From an uncultured bacterium (GTDB taxonomy: Bacteria > Verrucomicrobiota > Lentisphaeria > Victivallales > UBA1829): a DNA stretch of 64,000 nucleotides. Position 1 is the first letter of the stretch, and every line of letters begins with the position of its first letter. The position numbers and the translations under genes are program-made. The notes under the pieces are model-generated. The model worked only from the letters and a program-made list of their open reading frames with translations. It was not told the DNA's origin and did no database searches. Shown here in pieces: positions 1 to 11,446 of this stretch. Location: contig CACZEK010000001.1 in NCBI GenBank assembly GCA_902780135.1, positions 1 through 64,000 on the forward strand, read 5' to 3'.

Positions 1-876
1 ATAGCCCAGGTTGTTCTGCGCACTGGCATTGCCCTGTTCCGCAGCTTTCCGATACCATTTCACGGCTTCCGCTTTGTCCTTCTTCACGCCTTCGCCATAA
101 TCATAAGCATAGCCCAGGTTGTTCTGCGCACTGGCATTGCCCTGTTCCGCGGCTTTGCGATACCATTTCACGGCTTCCGCTTTGTCTTCGCTCACGCCTT
201 TGCCATAATCATAAGCATAGCCCAGGTTGTTCTGCGCACTGGCATTGCCCTGTTCCGCAGCTTTGCGATACCATTTCACGGCTTCCGCTTTGTCTTCGCT
301 CACGCCTTTGCCATAATCATAAGCATAGCCCAGATTGTACTGTGCATAGGAATCGTTCTGCTCCAGAGCCTTACGGTACAGCTCCATGACTTTTGCACTG
401 CTGCCGGGAGGCAAAGGCAAGGGGATAGAATCCAACCGTTTATGCAGCAGATACATGGCAAGCTCGCGCGCCTCCTCACTCGTGAGTTCGGGAAAAACGT
501 CTCTGAGTTTGCCCATGACCTGCCGGGTCATGCTGCCGGAGATTTTGCCGGAACTCATGTCGGTTTTGAGGATATCATTCACCTGGGAACATGCCTCAAA
601 GCATTCATCATAGCCCGGCTTTTTACCAAAGGTGTCATAAAACTCGTTGAACTCGTCGTCCCAGTCGTCCCGGTGTTCCTCCACAAACCCGATCACCTTG
701 GAAACGTATTCTTTTTCCTGCAAAAAAGCCGGTGCCGCGTTTCCGCCCGCGTCCACAGCCAGATTCGAAGCAGATTCCGTGTTTTCTTCGGTCCTGTCGC
801 AGATCGGGCACAGGTGTCTCTGCCCCAGGTTCATTCCGCATTTCGGGCAGATTCTGCCGCCGCTGTTGTTCGCCAT
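1..876 (-). CDS. Zinc-ribbon / Sel1-repeat protein, 3' end cut by window edge
   Basis: Reading on the minus strand from ATG at 876, 292 codons stay open to the left edge, so the C-terminus is missing. Residues 9-27 form a zinc ribbon with two CxxC pairs (CPKCG and CPICD). A middle region of about 110 residues has no recognised family; it is shared with the broken gene at 4329-5760 (both carry GSMT..VM..L..VFP.L..EEAR.LAM). At least four 36-residue Sel1 repeats of the type AEAVKWYRKAAEQGNASAQ follow, almost identical at the DNA level. Sel1 repeats form TPR-like superhelices that bind other proteins; the partner is unknown. The gene lies 37 bp downstream of the Sel1 gene ending at 914 and is probably cotranscribed with it. 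Family assignment is firm, function is not known. Confidence 0.85.
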   Translation of the reverse strand, partial: MANNSGGRICPKCGMNLGQRHLCPICDRTEENTESASNLAVDAGGNAAPAFLQEKEYVSKVIGFVEEHRDDWDDEFNEFYDTFGKKPGYDECFEACSQVNDILKTDMSSGKISGSMTRQVMGKLRDVFPELTSEEARELAMYLLHKRLDSIPLPLPPGSSAKVMELYRKALEQNDSYAQYNLGYAYDYGKGVSEDKAEAVKWYRKAAEQGNASAQNNLGYAYDYGKGVSEDKAEAVKWYRKAAEQGNASAQNNLGYAYDYGEGVKKDKAEAVKWYRKAAEQGNASAQNNLGY

Positions 877-913
877 TTTATGGTTTCCTTATCAATTCAG
901 GTTAAAAAAACAT

Positions 914-1930
914 TCACAGTTGAAGCCGGTCGAGCAGGGACTGCGCATCGGCGTTTCCATGTTCCGCCGCCATGCGCCACCATTTGACCGCCTCGGAATT
1001 ATCTTTCCCGACGCCTTCCCCCCGGAAATAGCACACGCCGAGCAGATACTGCGCATCGGGCATATTCTGTGCCGAGGCCGAACGGAACCACCGGGCCGCT
1101 TCGGAAACGTCCTTGTTTACGCCGTCGCCTTTGTAGAGACATACGCCAAGATAATACTGCGCGTCCGCATTTCCCTGTTCTGCCGCCATGCGCCACCATT
1201 TGACCGCCTCGGAAAAGTCCTTCGCCACGCCAGTTCCGCTGTAACAGCACTTGCCGAGAAACTCCTGTGCATCGGCGTCGCCTTGTTCCGCCGCCATGCG
1301 CAGCCACCGGAAGGCTTCGGAAAAGGCTCTCTCCACGCCTTCCCCTTTGAAGTAGCACATGCCGAGAAGATACTGCGCGGCGGCTCTGCCCTGTTCCGCC
1401 GCCATACGCAGCCAATTGATGGCTTCGGACTTGTTTCTCTCCACGCCTTCCCCCAGGAAAATGATCCGGCCGAGGGCGGATTGCGCCTTGGCGTCGCCAC
1501 GTTCCGCCGCCATGCGGAACCACCGGACCGCCTCGGGAACGTCTTTCACCACGCCGGTCCCGTTGTAATAACACGTGCCGAGGTTGTACTGCGCCGCGGC
1601 ATTGCCCTGTTCGGCGGCCAGACGGTACGTTTGGATCCGGTCGGCATTCTCCTGGTCCTCAAGGCGCGCCAGACACGAGTTCACGGCTTCGACACTGGCA
1701 GAATAAGCGCCGGTTCCGCAGCTGTCCTCATGCCCGGATTCCGGGACATCGCAGTTCGGACAAAGGTGCTTCTGCCCGAGGTTCATTCCGCACTTCGGAC
1801 ATACCCTGCCGCCACGCGGCTGTTCCGGCTCGGGTTCCGGTTCCGTCCTGTCGCAGACCGGGCACAGATGCTTCTGCCCCAGGTTCATTCCGCATTTCGG
1901 GCAGGTCCTGCCGTTGTCGTTGTTCACCAT
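914..1930 (-). CDS. Double zinc-ribbon Sel1-repeat protein
   Basis: 338 residues. Two zinc ribbons (about residues 8-27 and 42-61, each with two CxxC pairs) are separated by a short Glu/Pro linker. About six Sel1 repeats with the core EAVKWWRMAAEQGNADAQ fill residues 105-335. There is no signal peptide or membrane segment, so a cytoplasmic scaffold is the simplest reading. The gene sits 47 bp after its upstream neighbour and 37 bp before the next in a same-strand array of paralogues. Its Sel1 repeats (KWWRMAAE, RWFRMAAE) differ from those of neighbours (KWYRKAAE), so it has diverged on its own rather than being a fresh copy. Function unknown beyond probable protein binding. Confidence 0.85.
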   Translation of the reverse strand: MVNNDNGRTCPKCGMNLGQKHLCPVCDRTEPEPEPEQPRGGRVCPKCGMNLGQKHLCPNCDVPESGHEDSCGTGAYSASVEAVNSCLARLEDQENADRIQTYRLAAEQGNAAAQYNLGTCYYNGTGVVKDVPEAVRWFRMAAERGDAKAQSALGRIIFLGEGVERNKSEAINWLRMAAEQGRAAAQYLLGMCYFKGEGVERAFSEAFRWLRMAAEQGDADAQEFLGKCCYSGTGVAKDFSEAVKWWRMAAEQGNADAQYYLGVCLYKGDGVNKDVSEAARWFRSASAQNMPDAQYLLGVCYFRGEGVGKDNSEAVKWWRMAAEHGNADAQSLLDRLQL

Positions 1931-1977
1931 ATTTCAAACTCCTGTGTTCGATATTCAAGTCGGAAGGACGTGGCAGC

Positions 1978-3177
1978 TCACCGTCCAAGATTTCTCAGTT
2001 TTTCCCGCGCGTTTTCGTTTCCCTGTTCGGCGGCCAGACGGTACCATTTCGCAGCTTCCGCACGGTCCTCTTCCACGCCTTCGCCATGCTCATAGCAGCT
2101 GCCCAGAATATACTGCGCCTCGGCAAATCCCTGTTCGGCGGCTTTGCGATACCATTTCACCGCTTCCGCTTTATTTGGAGACAGGCCGGTGCCTGTTCCG
2201 CGATCATAGCAATACCCCAGATTGTACTGTGCCTTGGCGTTGCCCTGTTCGGCGGCCAGACGGTACCATTTCACGGCTTCCGTCCTGTTCTCGGCCACGC
2301 CTATGCCTTCACTATAGCAGTAGCCCAGATTGTTCTGCGCCTCGGCGTTGCCCTGTTCGGCGGCCAGACGATACCATTTCACGGCTTCCGTCCTGTTCTC
2401 GGCCACGCCTATGCCTTTACTATAGCAGTAGCCCAGATTGTTCTGTGCCATACGATATCCCTGTTCGGCGGCCAGACGATACCATTTCACGGCTTCCGCC
2501 TTATCCATGCTTACGCCTTTCCCCAGAAAGTAGCATTCGCCCAAACGGCTCTGCGCCTCGGCATCTCCCCGTTCGGCGGCAGTGCGATACCGATTGACGG
2601 CGGCCGTATCGTTTTCGTTCATCTTCCGATACGGGATATCGTACTCGCGCAGTTTGTTCCGGGCTCCCGCATGTCCCTGCGCCTCGGCCCTGCGCCACCA
2701 TTTGACCGCCTCGGACTTATTTTCCTCCACGCCCAGACCGTAAAAAAAGCATCCGCCCAAATTGTATTGCGCCTCGGCATCTCCCCGTTCGGCGGCAGTG
2801 CGATACCGGTTGACAGCTTCCGTCCTGTCGACCGGAGAGGAGGCGGCACGGAAAAAGTCTGAAGCACCCGCGTCATGCTTCTGCTCGGGCTTGTCGCAGA
2901 CCGGGCACAGGTGTTTCTGTCCGAGGTTCATCCCGCATTTCGGGCAGATTCTGCCACCGCGCCGCTGTTCCGGTTCGGATTCCGGTTCCGGGTTGTCGCA
3001 AATCGGACAGAGGTGTTTCTGCCCGAGGTTCATCCCGCATTTCGGGCAGATTCTGCCACCACGCCGCTGTTCCGGTTCGGATTCCGGTTCCGGGTTGTCG
3101 CAGATCGGGCACAGGTGTTTCTGCCCGAGGTTCATTCCGCATTTCGGACATACCCTGCCGCCGTTTCTGTTCGCCAT
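1978..3177 (-). CDS. Triple zinc-ribbon Sel1-repeat protein
   Basis: 399 residues. The N-terminus holds three zinc ribbons in tandem; the repeat unit is 34 residues (102 bp) and the first two linkers are identical (DNPEPESEPEQRR), which points to recent duplication. A variable linker of about 20 residues leads to seven or eight Sel1 repeats (EAVKWYRLAAEQGNAEAQ) to the C-terminus. No signal peptide or membrane helix is visible. Together with the single-ribbon and double-ribbon paralogues beside it, the ribbon number runs 1, 2, 3 across adjacent genes. It is 29 bp downstream of the YPNGN-repeat gene and likely in its operon. A role in binding nucleic acid or protein through the ribbons is possible but not shown. 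Confidence 0.85.
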   Translation of the reverse strand: MANRNGGRVCPKCGMNLGQKHLCPICDNPEPESEPEQRRGGRICPKCGMNLGQKHLCPICDNPEPESEPEQRRGGRICPKCGMNLGQKHLCPVCDKPEQKHDAGASDFFRAASSPVDRTEAVNRYRTAAERGDAEAQYNLGGCFFYGLGVEENKSEAVKWWRRAEAQGHAGARNKLREYDIPYRKMNENDTAAVNRYRTAAERGDAEAQSRLGECYFLGKGVSMDKAEAVKWYRLAAEQGYRMAQNNLGYCYSKGIGVAENRTEAVKWYRLAAEQGNAEAQNNLGYCYSEGIGVAENRTEAVKWYRLAAEQGNAKAQYNLGYCYDRGTGTGLSPNKAEAVKWYRKAAEQGFAEAQYILGSCYEHGEGVEEDRAEAAKWYRLAAEQGNENAREKLRNLGR

Positions 3178-3206
3178 TTCACAAATTCCTTACGTTGATT
3201 CAGGAG

Positions 3207-4178
3207 TTATTTCGAGGTGAGGATCCCGATTATGATCCAGAGGATCAGGCCGATCAGCAGAATGAGCCAGATCCGTCCGCCCGATGAACGGGCGCCGTCG
3301 TTCCGGCTCCGCACACGGCGCGGAGTAAAATCCCGCGCATCGACATCATCGTCGTCATCGTCGTCATCGTCGTCTTCATCGGTATCGTGGATCCGGATTC
3401 TACCGTTCGAGTCTATGGAACAAGTACTGTTGAAAAGCGCTCTGAAGCGTTCACTTCCGCCGGAATCCGAGGAGAAGATGCGGGAACCGTCGGATTCGCG
3501 GGTGTTCCCGCCGCCGGAATCCTCCCGCCCTCGGTCGGTGTTGTCTCGACCGCTGTTCGAACCGGAGCTACTGCCACGGTATCGACCGCTGTTCGAACCG
3601 GAGTTGCTCCCGCCGCCGGAACTCGAGGCGGATGCGCTGTTTTCCGTCCTGATCTCTTCGCGCGGACGGTATCTGCGTCCATGCGGGATAAAAAGGTAGA
3701 AAACGAGTTCGATGACCTCCCTAATATCGTTCACCCGGTCGATCGAGGCGGTCGGGATCCCGTTCCCATTTCCGTTCGGGTAAAAATAGACCGTCCGTCC
3801 GCATAATTCGAAATACGCGATATTGGGGATCCCGTTTGCGTTTCCGGTCGGATAAAACACGACCGCGTTCTCGCCGCGGAAACTGAAATAATACTCCGGG
3901 ATCCCGTTTGCGTTTCCATTCGGGTAGAACTCCACGGCGCCATACGGGCCGTGCCTGCGTCCTGGCGGGACATATTGGAAATAGTTGTACGGGATGCCGT
4001 TCAGGCCGGGCTGTCTGTAGACCTCGCAGGATTCCCTCGTCTTTCTCATCGACCAGATATGAATCCCGTTCGCGTTTCCGTTCGGGTAGAATTTGCACAT
4101 GCTTCCATCGATCTCCATGGAGGCGAAAGGAAAGCTGTTGCAGTTTCCGTTGTCGTAGACTTCGAGGATATGTCCCAT
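3207..4178 (-). CDS. Tail-anchored YPNGNANGIP-repeat protein, unknown family
   Basis: 323 residues, not recognised as any named family. Residues 1 to about 150 are six degenerate repeats of roughly 24 residues whose core is FYPNGNANGIP followed by an aromatic-rich strand and often Gly; variants include VYDNGNCNSFP, FYPTGNANGIP and FYPNGNGNGIP. The periodic aromatic/Gly/Asn pattern suggests beta-hairpins. Next comes a Ser/Gly/Asn-rich low-complexity stretch (about 175-235), a run of ten Asp near residue 275, a basic segment, and one hydrophobic helix (WLILLIGLILWIIIGIL) ending three residues before the C-terminus. There is no signal peptide, so it should be a C-tail-anchored protein with the repeats inside the cell. 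It heads the minus-strand array of zinc-ribbon/Sel1 genes. Confidence 0.8.
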   Translation of the reverse strand: MGHILEVYDNGNCNSFPFASMEIDGSMCKFYPNGNANGIHIWSMRKTRESCEVYRQPGLNGIPYNYFQYVPPGRRHGPYGAVEFYPNGNANGIPEYYFSFRGENAVVFYPTGNANGIPNIAYFELCGRTVYFYPNGNGNGIPTASIDRVNDIREVIELVFYLFIPHGRRYRPREEIRTENSASASSSGGGSNSGSNSGRYRGSSSGSNSGRDNTDRGREDSGGGNTRESDGSRIFSSDSGGSERFRALFNSTCSIDSNGRIRIHDTDEDDDDDDDDDDVDARDFTPRRVRSRNDGARSSGGRIWLILLIGLILWIIIGILTSK

Positions 4179-4328
4179 AATCTGCTCCTGTCGTTTTATG
4201 GGGTGAAATCCGTTTTCAGTTATTCGGTTGTATTGTGTACCGGCTTATTTCATCAGTCCGTTTCTTGTTGGGCAAACTTCTCTTCTTTTCCCTTGTCAGG
4301 AACAAAAAGAGCGATATTATTACCACAA
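4179..4328. other. Short intergenic gap between Sel1 gene remnant and YPNGN-repeat gene
   Basis: 150 bp between the stop of the broken Sel1 gene and the start of the YPNGN-repeat gene, both on the minus strand. It is AT-richer than its surroundings. A GGAG ribosome-binding site precedes the ATG at 4178. I could not pick out a convincing promoter or terminator. Confidence 0.4.
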
Positions 4329-5760
4329 TCAATGCCTTATTTCATAATATACCACAATACCGATGGCAATGACTCCTACTACAACAACAATCTTGCCCCA
4401 AAGTATAATTGCTAATTCTTCTTTTGCCTCTGTATCCCCCTGTTCGGCGGCTTTGCGCAACCATTTCACGGCTTCCGCTTTGTCCTTCTTCACGCCTTTG
4501 CCATAATCATAAGCACGGCCCAGATTGTACTGTGCACTGGCATTGCCCTGTTCCGCGGCTTTGCGATACCATTTCACGGCTTCCGCATAGTCTGGGGTCA
4601 CGCCTTCGCCGTTATTATAGCATTTGCCGAGTTTAAACATGGCATCCGGGTTGCCTTGCCCAGCAGCATCCAGCAAATCCACTACTTTTTTCAGAGACGA
4701 TACTTTTTCCTGCGCGGCTTCATTGCCCTGTTCGGCGGCTTTGCGGTACCATTTCACGGCCTCCGGTATGTCTCTGTTCACGCCTTTGCCATATTCATAA
4801 GCACGGCCCAGATTGTACTGTGCACTGGCATTGCCCTGTTCCGCGGCTTTCCGATACCATTTCACGGCTTCCGTCCTGTTCTCGGCCACGCCTATGCCTT
4901 CACTATAGCAGTAGCCCAGATTGTTCTGCGCCTCGGCATGCCCCTGTTCCGCAGCTTTCCGATACCATTTCACGGCTTCCGCTTTGTCTTCGCTCACGCC
5001 TTCGCCATGTTCATAAGCATAGCCCAGGTTGTTCTGCGCACTGGCATTGCCCTTTCACGGCTTCCGCTTTGTCCTTCTTCACGCCTTCGCCATATTCATA
5101 AGCACGGCCCAGATTGTTCTGCGCCTCGGCATGCCCCTGTTCCGCAGCTTTGCGATACCATTTCACGGCTTCCGCTTTGTCCTTTTCCACGCCTTTGCCA
5201 TGTTCACAAGCATAGCCCAGATTGTACTGCGCCTCGGAGTCGTTCTTTCTCTTGGCGTTAAGGTACATTTTCATGACTTCGGGACTTCTCCGGGGAGGGA
5301 GGGGCGCAATTCTGTAATCCAGCAGGTCCATAGCCAGACCGCGCGCCTCCTCATCCGAAAGGTCCGGGAAAACCGCTTTCAGTTCATTCATGACTTTGAT
5401 CGTCATGCTGCCTGACACTTTATCGGAATCCGGTCTGTTTCTTCCGAATATCCCGCTCACTTTGGAGCAGGCATCATGGTATTCCTCATAACTATGTTCC
5501 CCGGGAAGACCATCGAAAAAGGTATTGAATTCCTTATCCCAGTCGTACATGTATCCGTATCCGCCGATGAATTCGATCAGGCGGGAAACATAATCCGCGG
5601 TCTGCGAGGCCGCCGGTGCCGTGTTTCCGCCCGCGTCCGCGGTCGGATTCGGAGCAGATCCCGTGTTTTCTTCTGTCTTATCGCAGATCGGGCAGAGGTG
5701 TCTCTGCCCCATGTTCATTCCGCATTTCGGGCAGACTCTGCCGCCGTGTTTTTCCGCCAT
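4329..5760 (-). pseudogene. Zinc-ribbon / Sel1 / C-terminal TM protein, frameshifted by a 23-nt deletion
   Basis: Two abutting open frames read as one gene. The 5' part (5760-5011, 249 residues) has a zinc ribbon (CPKCGMNMGQRHLCPIC), the roughly 110-residue middle region shared with the gene at 1-876, and the first Sel1 repeats; it ends in an out-of-frame tail after AEAVK. The 3' part (4997-4329, 222 residues) starts within a Sel1 repeat and ends in one membrane helix (KIVVVVGVIAIGIVVYY), so the intact product would be tail-anchored. At 5052/5053 the repeat that normally reads GCCCTGTTCCGC...CCATTTCACGG lacks 23 nt, which shifts the frame. The cause could be slippage between repeats or a sequencing or assembly error in repetitive DNA. 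The downstream part could be made only by reinitiation. Confidence 0.8.
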
Positions 5761-6170
5761 GATGTATATCCTTTCCGAGGTGCCGATTTGTTCTTATAAT
5801 ATTGATACAATACTATAGCATGATTCAACCGGGAATCAAGGCGGGCGCGAAGAAAAAACAGGCTTTTCTCTCTGTTTTCATTTCTCCACAAAACGTTTCC
5901 GGTACGCCTCGGAACGGATCTCACATCCCGCGCTTCAAAGATTTTGGTGTAGTTGATGTTTTTATGCAACATTCACGGCGCTTTATTTGCGATTCCCTCG
6001 ACTGGAAGAATGAAAACAGGGTTTATTGAAAAAGCCGAATTTCATCTTTCTCCTAAAAACCAGTTGAAAATGCTCATTCAGGAATGCAGCAGCAACAGTA
6101 ATAAGCACAAACACTGCAAGAATACCCACACCACAAGAGTATTAATACCCCTTACCATGTGGGGCCCGAA
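5761..6170. other. Intergenic region upstream of the broken Sel1 gene
   Basis: 410 bp. It holds a minus-strand promoter near its left end (5812-5839). The rest, about 330 bp, shows no supported gene; the small open frames have no ribosome-binding site or recognisable product. Confidence 0.5.
5812..5839 (-). promoter_or_regulatory. Sigma-70-like promoter for the zinc-ribbon/Sel1 gene at 5760
   Basis: On the minus strand TTGATT (5839-5834), a 16-nt spacer and TATAGT (5817-5812). It lies about 50 bp upstream of the ATG at 5760 and may serve the whole minus-strand array. Confidence 0.6.
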
Positions 6171-7880
6171 TCAACCATAACGCCATTGCTTGATACATAC
6201 CACAACAACAATGAATAAAACCGGAAGCAGAAAAACCCATTTAGAGGATTTCTTTTGAGATTCAGCTTCTACGGTGCTGTCATCTTCATGATAAAAGGTC
6301 TCAAGCATTCTCTTTGCGAGTGAACTGCCTTGTTCGGCCGCTTTGCGTAACCATTTTTCGGATTCATCCCAGTCCTTTGATCGATAGTAAAGCCCCAATA
6401 CCAGCTGCGCTTCCATCACATGCCCGTATTCCGCGGCATTACGGTACCATTTCACGGCTTCGTCCATGTCTTTGGCAATGCCCTCGCCTGTCGCATAACA
6501 CACCCCGAGCCTGTACTGCGCCTTCGAATGCCAACGCTCCGCGGCCTTGCGGTACAATTTCACGGCTTCGGCGGAGTTCTTATCAACACCGAGGCCCTTC
6601 GCATAACACTCGCCGAGCTTGTACTGCGCGTCCGAACAACCGCCTTTTTCGTCCGCCATGCCGTACCACTTGGCCGCCTCGGCATAATCCTGTTTCACTC
6701 CTTTTCCAATGAAAAAGCATTCGCCGAGTTCATAGCACGCATCGGCATTGCCGCGATCCGCGGCGAGACTGTACAACCGGAACGCCTCCGCATCGTCCAA
6801 GGGGACCTGTTTCCCGGTTTCATAGTATTTGCCGAGCTTGACCATTGCAACGGGATCCCCGTCTTCCACGGCTTTGCGCAAGCCAATGACCTCGTTCATG
6901 GAATTGATCTTTTCGGACATTTCTTCTTTGCCCCCCTGTTCCGCCGCCATGCCGTACCACTTGACCGCCTCGGCATAATCCGAAAGAGCATTGTCCTTCT
7001 CGTATATCTTTCCCAGCTTGACCATGGCGTTGATATGCCCCTGTTCCGCCGCTTTTCGATACCATTTCACGGCTTCCGTCATCTCTTTCGGCACACCGTT
7101 GCCGTTCTGATAGGATCCGCCGAGGCAGAACTGAGCTTCGGCATGCCCCTGTTCCGCCGCGGCGGAATACCATTTGATCGCTTTGTTCAAATCACGGGCC
7201 GTGCCTTTTCCGGTCGCGTAGTGTGTTCCGAGTTCGAATTGAGCTGCCGCACATCCCTGTCCCGCCGATTTGAGAAACCATTTGACCGCTTCGGAAGGAT
7301 TCTCTTTCGCCCCCCGGCCTCTGTCATAGCACACGCCGAGCCGGAACTGCGCCTCGACATGCCCCTGTTCCGCCGCTTTCCGGTACCATTTGAATGCTTC
7401 AGCCTCGTCTGTTGCCACGCCGGTTCCGTTGAAACAGCATTCTCCCAGCACGAATTGCGCCTCGACATGCCCCATGTCTGCGGCCTTCCGATACCATCTG
7501 GCCGCTACTTCCGGATCCTTTTTGACGCCGCGCCCCTTCGCATAGCAGATGCCGATCCGGTACAGACCTTCCGGGTTTATTTGTTTGGCGGCCTCGAAAT
7601 ACCATTTGAGAGCCTGTGCGTCATCCTGCTCCACGCCCTGTCCGTTCCAGAAGCAGTCGGCGATTCGGGTCTGCGCTTCCGCATTGCCTTGTTCGGCTGC
7701 TTTCAGAAACCATTTCGCAGCGGTTTCGTAATCCTGCTCGGCATAGGCGGTTTCCCCAAGTGCGAACTCCTCCTGCCCCGACTTCGGACTCCTGCCGCAG
7801 GAAATGAAGACTGCGCATAAGAACAACGCGAGGATGAGGAAGCGATTGTGTTGAAACTTGCGTCGGTGTTGTTTTATCAT
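6171..7880 (-). CDS. Sel1-repeat lipoprotein with C-terminal membrane helix
   Basis: 569 residues. The N-terminus (basic start, then FLILALFLCAVFISCG) looks like a lipoprotein signal with the acylated Cys near residue 28, although Phe at -3 is unusual. About thirteen Sel1 repeats (AEAVKWYRKAAEQGHVEAQF and variants) fill residues 40-530. A hydrophobic helix (WVFLLPVLFIVVVVCI) follows near the C-terminus. The mature protein would be exported and held at both ends, unlike the neighbouring zinc-ribbon Sel1 proteins, which have no signal peptide. Exported Sel1 proteins often act as adaptors in envelope or host-interaction functions; none is shown here. It has its own promoter at 7914-7941 and is separated from the array below by 410 bp. 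Confidence 0.85.
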   Translation of the reverse strand: MIKQHRRKFQHNRFLILALFLCAVFISCGRSPKSGQEEFALGETAYAEQDYETAAKWFLKAAEQGNAEAQTRIADCFWNGQGVEQDDAQALKWYFEAAKQINPEGLYRIGICYAKGRGVKKDPEVAARWYRKAADMGHVEAQFVLGECCFNGTGVATDEAEAFKWYRKAAEQGHVEAQFRLGVCYDRGRGAKENPSEAVKWFLKSAGQGCAAAQFELGTHYATGKGTARDLNKAIKWYSAAAEQGHAEAQFCLGGSYQNGNGVPKEMTEAVKWYRKAAEQGHINAMVKLGKIYEKDNALSDYAEAVKWYGMAAEQGGKEEMSEKINSMNEVIGLRKAVEDGDPVAMVKLGKYYETGKQVPLDDAEAFRLYSLAADRGNADACYELGECFFIGKGVKQDYAEAAKWYGMADEKGGCSDAQYKLGECYAKGLGVDKNSAEAVKLYRKAAERWHSKAQYRLGVCYATGEGIAKDMDEAVKWYRNAAEYGHVMEAQLVLGLYYRSKDWDESEKWLRKAAEQGSSLAKRMLETFYHEDDSTVEAESQKKSSKWVFLLPVLFIVVVVCIKQWRYG

Positions 7881-10537: not shown

Positions 10538-11446
10538 ATGTCGAATACGAAAACGAGACGAAATATCTTCCTCATGATTGTCGCGGTCGTTTTCGCCGTC
10601 GCGGGCTTCACCGGGTGCAGGCATGATGTGGTCAACGCCGACGGCGAAACGGTCAGTGCCGTAATCACGCCGCTCCAAATCGGTCCGCTGCTGATTCCCT
10701 TCGGGGAGGAAAATGTCACCACCTACGGCCTTTCCACGGGATTGGCGACAATGGACACGGACTCATGCGGGATCTTTGCCTCGGTCTTGGGATCGGGGTT
10801 TGCCGGAACAAACTATGGAATATCAGCCGGCCTTGCATTCGGAATAAATGGCCGGGAGTCAAGCTTCAACGGGATTTCAACTGGGCTTCTGTATTATAAG
10901 GATTTTATAGGATACGGCCCGGGTTCCGGGACTCAGAACGGCATTTCCGTTTTTCCGTTTGAAACCGGAAGCAAAACGAACGGGCTTTCCGTCGAAGCCT
11001 CTACGCTGAGCAAGGACTTCAACGGAATTGACGTTTGCCTTTTCAATCTTTACGGGACAAGAGGGATCGGGCTGCAGGTGATCGGACTGGATTGTTCCAC
11101 GAACAACGAGAGCAGAATAGTCGGGTGCCAGATCGGAGGGCTCCTGCGTTCGGGTGTTCGCGGCGCGCAGATCGGGGCGATCACATACAATCCGGGGGTA
11201 TATCCGGGGCATGACCGCGGGGATTCGTTCGGAAAATGCCTGAACTTAGGCATCCTGAACTTCGAGCTGAAGGAGGGCTTTCAGGTCGGCGCAATCAACA
11301 ATACCTCGGACGGGAATCCAGTTCAGATCGGGCTGTTCAACACCACCTTCGACGGCAGCCCGTTCCAGATCGGCTTGCTGAACATCAACCCGAACGGATT
11401 CTTTCCGATCTTCCCATTCTTCAATTACAGCGTCAAAAAGGATTGA
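10538..11446 (+). CDS. Lipoprotein with surface-type NGIS/QIGL repeats
   Basis: 302 residues. A basic start and hydrophobic stretch end in AGFTGC, a probable lipobox with Cys near residue 27. The rest is repetitive: short strands with turns such as NGISTGL, NGLSVEA, GAQIGAI, VQIGLFN and FQIGLLN recur every 12-20 residues. This beta-solenoid-like pattern resembles the LA_2272-type surface repeat proteins known from Leptospira and Bacteroidota; that match is from memory of the family motif and needs a profile search. Expected location is the outer membrane or cell surface. It is transcribed from repeat copy 2 and preceded by AAGGGCC as a weak ribosome-binding site. Confidence 0.7.
   Translation: MSNTKTRRNIFLMIVAVVFAVAGFTGCRHDVVNADGETVSAVITPLQIGPLLIPFGEENVTTYGLSTGLATMDTDSCGIFASVLGSGFAGTNYGISAGLAFGINGRESSFNGISTGLLYYKDFIGYGPGSGTQNGISVFPFETGSKTNGLSVEASTLSKDFNGIDVCLFNLYGTRGIGLQVIGLDCSTNNESRIVGCQIGGLLRSGVRGAQIGAITYNPGVYPGHDRGDSFGKCLNLGILNFELKEGFQVGAINNTSDGNPVQIGLFNTTFDGSPFQIGLLNINPNGFFPIFPFFNYSVKKD

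Follow-up and report, generated by a model that had tools for sequence, protein, structure and literature searches.

What do the short, NG-rich repeats of a tail-anchored protein fold into, and what might such a protein do at the membrane? The window (the whole 64,000-nucleotide stretch of DNA analysed here) raises this question at 3207-4178 on its minus strand, where an ORF of 323 aa begins with ATG and carries a good Shine-Dalgarno site, AGGAG, six bases before it. The ORF, this site and homologues of the N-terminal half identify the gene as a whole. The protein, from a rumen bacterium, is real and coherent, and mildly surprising: a predicted sixfold beta-flower domain followed by a linker and a tail anchor. 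It would be a cytosolic, tail-anchored form of a recently described fold.

Repeats, linker and membrane tail

An earlier note on this DNA had described about six repeats, then a Ser/Gly linker with ten consecutive Asp residues, and a single membrane helix at the C-terminus, and the sequence confirms each of these parts. Six hairpin repeats of 23-24 aa occupy residues ~3-148 (3735..4172, minus strand), with 12 strands predicted by the AF2 models, and are ~40% identical to one another. In five of them the G(N/L)xN(G/S) core can be recognised (residues 11, 34, 88, 112 and 136); the third is degenerate (SCEVYRQPGLNGIP, core near residue 57) and carries an 8-residue insertion in the otherwise even spacing of 23-24 residues. 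The motif NG[NL]xN[GS][IF] is present in 4 copies. Shuffling the same residues 20,000 times produced no copy in 19,981 shuffles and a single copy in the other 19; the motif count is far above chance. As the earlier note had also proposed, the core matches no named sequence family, since searches of Pfam, NCBIfam, PHROGs and PDB sequences all remained below cut-off, and the PHROGs and PDB-sequence matches were discarded as being at chance level only.

Between the repeats and the linker lies a conserved, hydrophobic helix that had been missing from the earlier list of parts (residues 152-163, IREVIELVFYLF; 3690..3725, minus strand; assigned by DSSP of the AF2 models and by the alignment). This helix, which we propose to be a barrel plug, is the key to the fold. 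It is followed by a low-complexity linker (residues ~167-279; 3342..3680, minus strand) that is rich in Arg, Ser and Gly and then runs into ten Asp residues, DTDEDDDDDDDDDDVD. The C-terminal half weakly matched PBP1_TM, DamX and PRK09506; these matches are explained by an acidic run preceding a transmembrane helix and were rejected.

The protein ends in a single transmembrane helix (residues 303-321, IWLILLIGLILWIIIGILT; 3216..3272, minus strand), the sole hydropathy peak of the protein with a mean Kyte-Doolittle value of 2.9, in agreement with the tail anchor first claimed. An N-in topology is predicted because an Arg-rich stretch flanks this helix on its N-terminal side. Hydropathy found no N-terminal hydrophobic signal or signal peptide in the protein, and the repeat domain is therefore expected to be cytosolic.

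Predicted fold and its standing among known barrels

The earlier note had asked whether the repeats form a beta-propeller or a solenoid. Structure prediction pointed to neither, and instead to a sixfold beta-flower, a Tubby-like barrel. With the window domain and ten relatives as input, AF2 returned a model in which twelve short strands are followed by the C-terminal helix, residues 152-163 (mean pLDDT 88.3, pTM 0.84). A second AF2 query, a 159-aa protein from the other clade of the family (locus L021), was run with an alignment that did not contain the window sequence, and gave a highly regular model of 12 strands with a helix at 142-155 (pLDDT 91.0, pTM 0.85). For both models the best solved match in VIA was 1zxu, a LURP-one-related plant protein of Tubby-like fold, with Z 7.9 over 123 aligned residues at 4.6 A for the window model (next row 5.2) and Z 8.3 over 120 at 4.1 A for the L021 model (next row 5.0), although VIA itself rates Z near 8 as common among models without a clear match. 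The alignments to 1zxu begin at model residue 14 and span the helix, which is the only basis for the predicted place of the helix inside the barrel. Foldseek ranked 1zxu first for the L021 model (probability 1.00, TM 0.55), and 1zxu was not among the best 50 matches of the window model. Foldseek searches of BFVD and, for the window model, of the PDB yielded only weak matches, to WD40 propellers among other folds; TM was about 0.3 and the rmsd large, and the beta-propeller was set aside.

Beta-flowers were recognised only in 2023, when Durairaj et al. gave this name to a shallow symmetric barrel of 8, 10 or 12 strands, or 4, 5 or 6 hairpin petals, with long loops (~9) on one face and short ones (~4) on the opposite face (PMC10584680). 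Many of them enclose a hydrophobic C-terminal helix, [DNEQ]XXG is semiconserved at the hairpin tip, and the sixfold form resembles Tubby and 1ZXU with the N-terminal strand circularly permuted; a likeness to 2FIM is described as well (PMC10584680). The window family is predicted to share this layout with the sixfold beta-flowers (PF21786 Bflower_3, PF21784 and PF21785; clan CL0395), having six petals, 12 short antiparallel strands in both AF2 models, long loops on one side only and a C-terminal hydrophobic helix. In the L021 model, six ten-residue loops with NGNxNG lie on one side and five turns of 2-3 residues on the opposite side. The [DNEQ]xxG signature occurs at the loop, in the form NxNG, in 6/6 repeats of the L021 protein (N[CG]NG) and 4/6 of the window protein (N[AG]NG).

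In contrast to this likeness in layout, there is no detectable sequence similarity between the window family and known beta-flowers. PF21784, PF21785 and PF21786 gave no match at E<=1 in 13 members and none in the window's genome, and PF01167, PF04525, PF03803 and the Tubby-clan models gave no match at E<=1 in any member. Comparison by hhalign with same-order beta-flower proteins was blank, with probabilities of about 1% or lower, both alignments being shallow. The unit is 23-24 aa in the window family and about 20 in beta-flowers. Family members have no signal peptide or lipobox, whereas the PF21786 relatives present in the same order have a signal peptide, as in the protein at L074 (E 3e-25), and only the window copy adds a linker and a transmembrane anchor to the beta-flower plan. 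Because no Pfam beta-flower model reaches the family sequences, membership rests on fold and layout. On the predicted fold, we call the repeat family a sixfold beta-flower and a new sequence family outside the existing Pfam entries. Elsewhere in the order, secreted proteins at the centres of loci L079, L080 and L081 have about six 20-residue TTYYYNGNGSSAGRSTSSGN repeats, lack a C-terminal helix and are sub-threshold to Bflower_3; they are possibly another beta-flower branch.

The LURP-one-related (LOR)/Tubby C-terminal domain (PF04525; At5g01750, PDB 1zxu) would, if the models are right, share with the window family a barrel of 12 strands and, within it, a C-terminal hydrophobic helix. It differs in its longer strands, in a repetition that is not obvious, as opposed to the similar hairpins of the window family, and in the entry of the helix, which relates to the beta-flower layout by a circular permutation (PMC10584680). 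PF04525 had no match in the window's genome and no LOR gene was found in the genus; the only LOR control protein came from a different family within the order.

A MORN_2-type protein (PF07661), in which the hairpins would form an open ribbon or extended sheet and not a closed plugged barrel, is the first alternative to this fold. MORN_2 shares with the window repeats a short NG-containing hairpin, resembles them in repeat length (22-24) and in the NG core, and some beta-flowers are themselves annotated as a MORN variant (PMC10584680). Although it is the nearest repeat HMM for 3 of the 13 members, the matches are weak (best E 0.0004), and the window protein scores 16.5 bits where the curated cut-off is 29.6. 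The domain of the window family moreover has a fixed number of repeats and closes with a helix; exactly six repeats and an invariantly placed hydrophobic helix favour a closed object, and the best solved match, 1zxu, is a plugged barrel. We regard an open sheet as unlikely, and the helix as likely enclosed by the barrel.

The Y-xxxx-N/C-x-G hairpins might instead be parts of the Greek keys of a beta-gamma-crystallin or MiAMP1-like domain. MiAMP1 (PF09117) is weakly matched in 10 of 13 members, with a best E of 9e-5, yet its score for the L021 protein, 18.2 bits, lies under the curated cut-off of 26. Greek keys of beta-gamma-crystallins are ~40 residues long, which is at odds with six similar hairpins repeated every 23 residues; the AF2 models show plain hairpins, and to our knowledge no terminal helix is expected in that fold. 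This second alternative is very improbable. The MiAMP1 matches were rejected as sub-threshold, as were those to FAM194.

A family centred on one genus and a tail of one paralogue

Homologues of the repeat domain are encoded at a further 13 places, namely 12 loci in one genus and a diverged homologue (37% identity) in a sister genus. One of the loci is a second copy in the window's genome (G000 contig 23, 40072-40536), and the other eleven are spread over 10 of 12 related genomes of the same genus. For eleven of the 13 places the named records belong to rumen MAGs, which carry the labels Lentisphaeria, Victivallales or uncultured. The domain was not found elsewhere in the phylum in a sample of 388 genomes, and sequence searches of IMG/VR viral contigs and of phage and plasmid collections gave no matches. 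A profile match in G071 (E 5e-4, two stops) was rejected, being out of frame within unrelated genes.

The tree separates the window copy, G002, G009 and both G012 genes, as a clade with 100/100 support, from the remaining members. Pairwise omega (dN/dS) among members is 0.07-0.48, and the family is thus under purifying selection. The helix of the domain is conserved throughout, with E and F invariant and D, V, Y, L and I near-invariant in the alignment of 13 members. The other full-length members are 156-172 aa long; no other member has the linker and transmembrane tail, which have no convincing counterpart elsewhere in the genus. We infer that the tail was acquired by one paralogue, which would place a binding module at the membrane.

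Possible role and gene neighbourhoods

As we read the protein, it is probably a cytosolic, plugged sixfold beta-flower that acts as a binding module through its loop rim and is held at the inner face of the membrane by its linker and transmembrane helix. Within residues ~1-165, six similar beta-hairpins are predicted to come together as a closed, shallow barrel of 12 strands, with the hydrophobic helix folding back to form its core, as in Tubby C-terminal, LOR and scramblase domains. The six Asn/Gly-rich, ten-residue NGNxNG loops would crowd one rim to form a putative pseudo-sixfold binding face, whose ligand may be polar lipid headgroups or a protein or polymer. A flexible charged linker of ~140 residues and the C-terminal helix would then keep the domain tethered at the cytoplasmic membrane, on its inner side. 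The repeats, the family and its selection, the conserved helix and the unique tail are direct observations and the fold is a good prediction, whereas topology, ligand class and role are inferred.

Tubby-like relatives show phosphoinositide binding or scramblase activity (PMC10584680), and such activity is a lead, by analogy, for the window family; no paper assigning a function to beta-flowers was found. With its fold as predicted, the family is a clean six-repeat, cytosolic beta-flower branch without signal peptides, and it offers a natural membrane-tethered fusion. Its similar hairpins illustrate a possible origin of the Tubby-like plugged barrel by duplication of one 23-residue hairpin.

The family also offers a conserved gene context in one clade. 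At 8/8 loci of the clade without the window copy, the gene upstream on the same strand, identified from its sequence as phosphate acetyltransferase (pta), ends about 95-160 bases before the start of the family gene; these loci include the second copy in the window's genome. At L021 (6900-8477), as at the equivalent places in L020-L027, the family gene lies directly 3' of phosphate acetyltransferase. Within the clade of the window copy no shared neighbours were found. A more specific proposal, in which a cytosol-facing, membrane-tethered bacterial Tubby-like barrel of six similar hairpins would read a membrane lipid or a metabolite via its NGNxNG rim, with the untethered pta-linked relatives tying their clade to acetate/acetyl-phosphate metabolism, strikes us as rather doubtful. 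Near the beta-flower gene of G002, about 3.3 kb away, is a 1052-aa ORF with a Cas9-like N-terminus (L028 2093-5251, minus strand).

Downstream of the window gene, a zinc-ribbon/Sel1 gene (1978..3177, minus strand), with three zinc-ribbon motifs and Sel1 repeats by sequence and profile search, begins 29 bases past the stop on the same strand. This gap allows co-transcription in the window's genome, and co-transcription of the two genes is possible. It had been proposed that these proteins might make up a membrane-attached complex. The beta-flower could then be its scaffold in this species, and such a complex is compatible with the beta-flower fold. The short gap on the same strand is in its favour, as is a further Sel1 gene nearby that ends in a transmembrane helix. 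The neighbourhood check nevertheless left the proposal unsupported, with no zinc-ribbon/Sel1 gene beside any other family locus. Other members are located elsewhere; at L037 a plain Sel1 gene lies some 1.2 kb from the family gene. The zinc-ribbon pattern was found in 0/60 related genomes and a zinc-ribbon protein search gave 0/40, so that among the genomes searched the island of these genes occurs only in the window's genome. Sel1 repeats give 14-142 matches per genome across the genus, and at that abundance adjacency in a single genome counts for little. With the island confined to one genome and Sel1 common in the genus, a conserved Sel1 link is not supported, and we give the complex a small chance.

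The island itself covers window positions 1-7880 on the minus strand and holds Sel1 genes, five or six in number; in four, the protein starts with one to three CPKCGMNxGQ(K/R)HLCPxCD zinc-ribbon motifs. Beyond it, at 10538-11446 on the plus strand, lies a protein of 302 aa whose start resembles that of a lipoprotein and which contains many G-rich units of the GISxGL type; it had no Pfam match at E<=0.1. Within the island, at 4329-5760 on the minus strand, the tail-anchored Sel1 ORF 4329-4997 and the zinc-ribbon/Sel1 ORF 5011-5760 seem to be parts of a single gene that a frameshift interrupts within its repeat array, through a real lesion or a repeat misassembly; between the neighbouring Sel1 units 4938-5045 and 5131-5238 there are 85 bases, against a unit of 108 bases.
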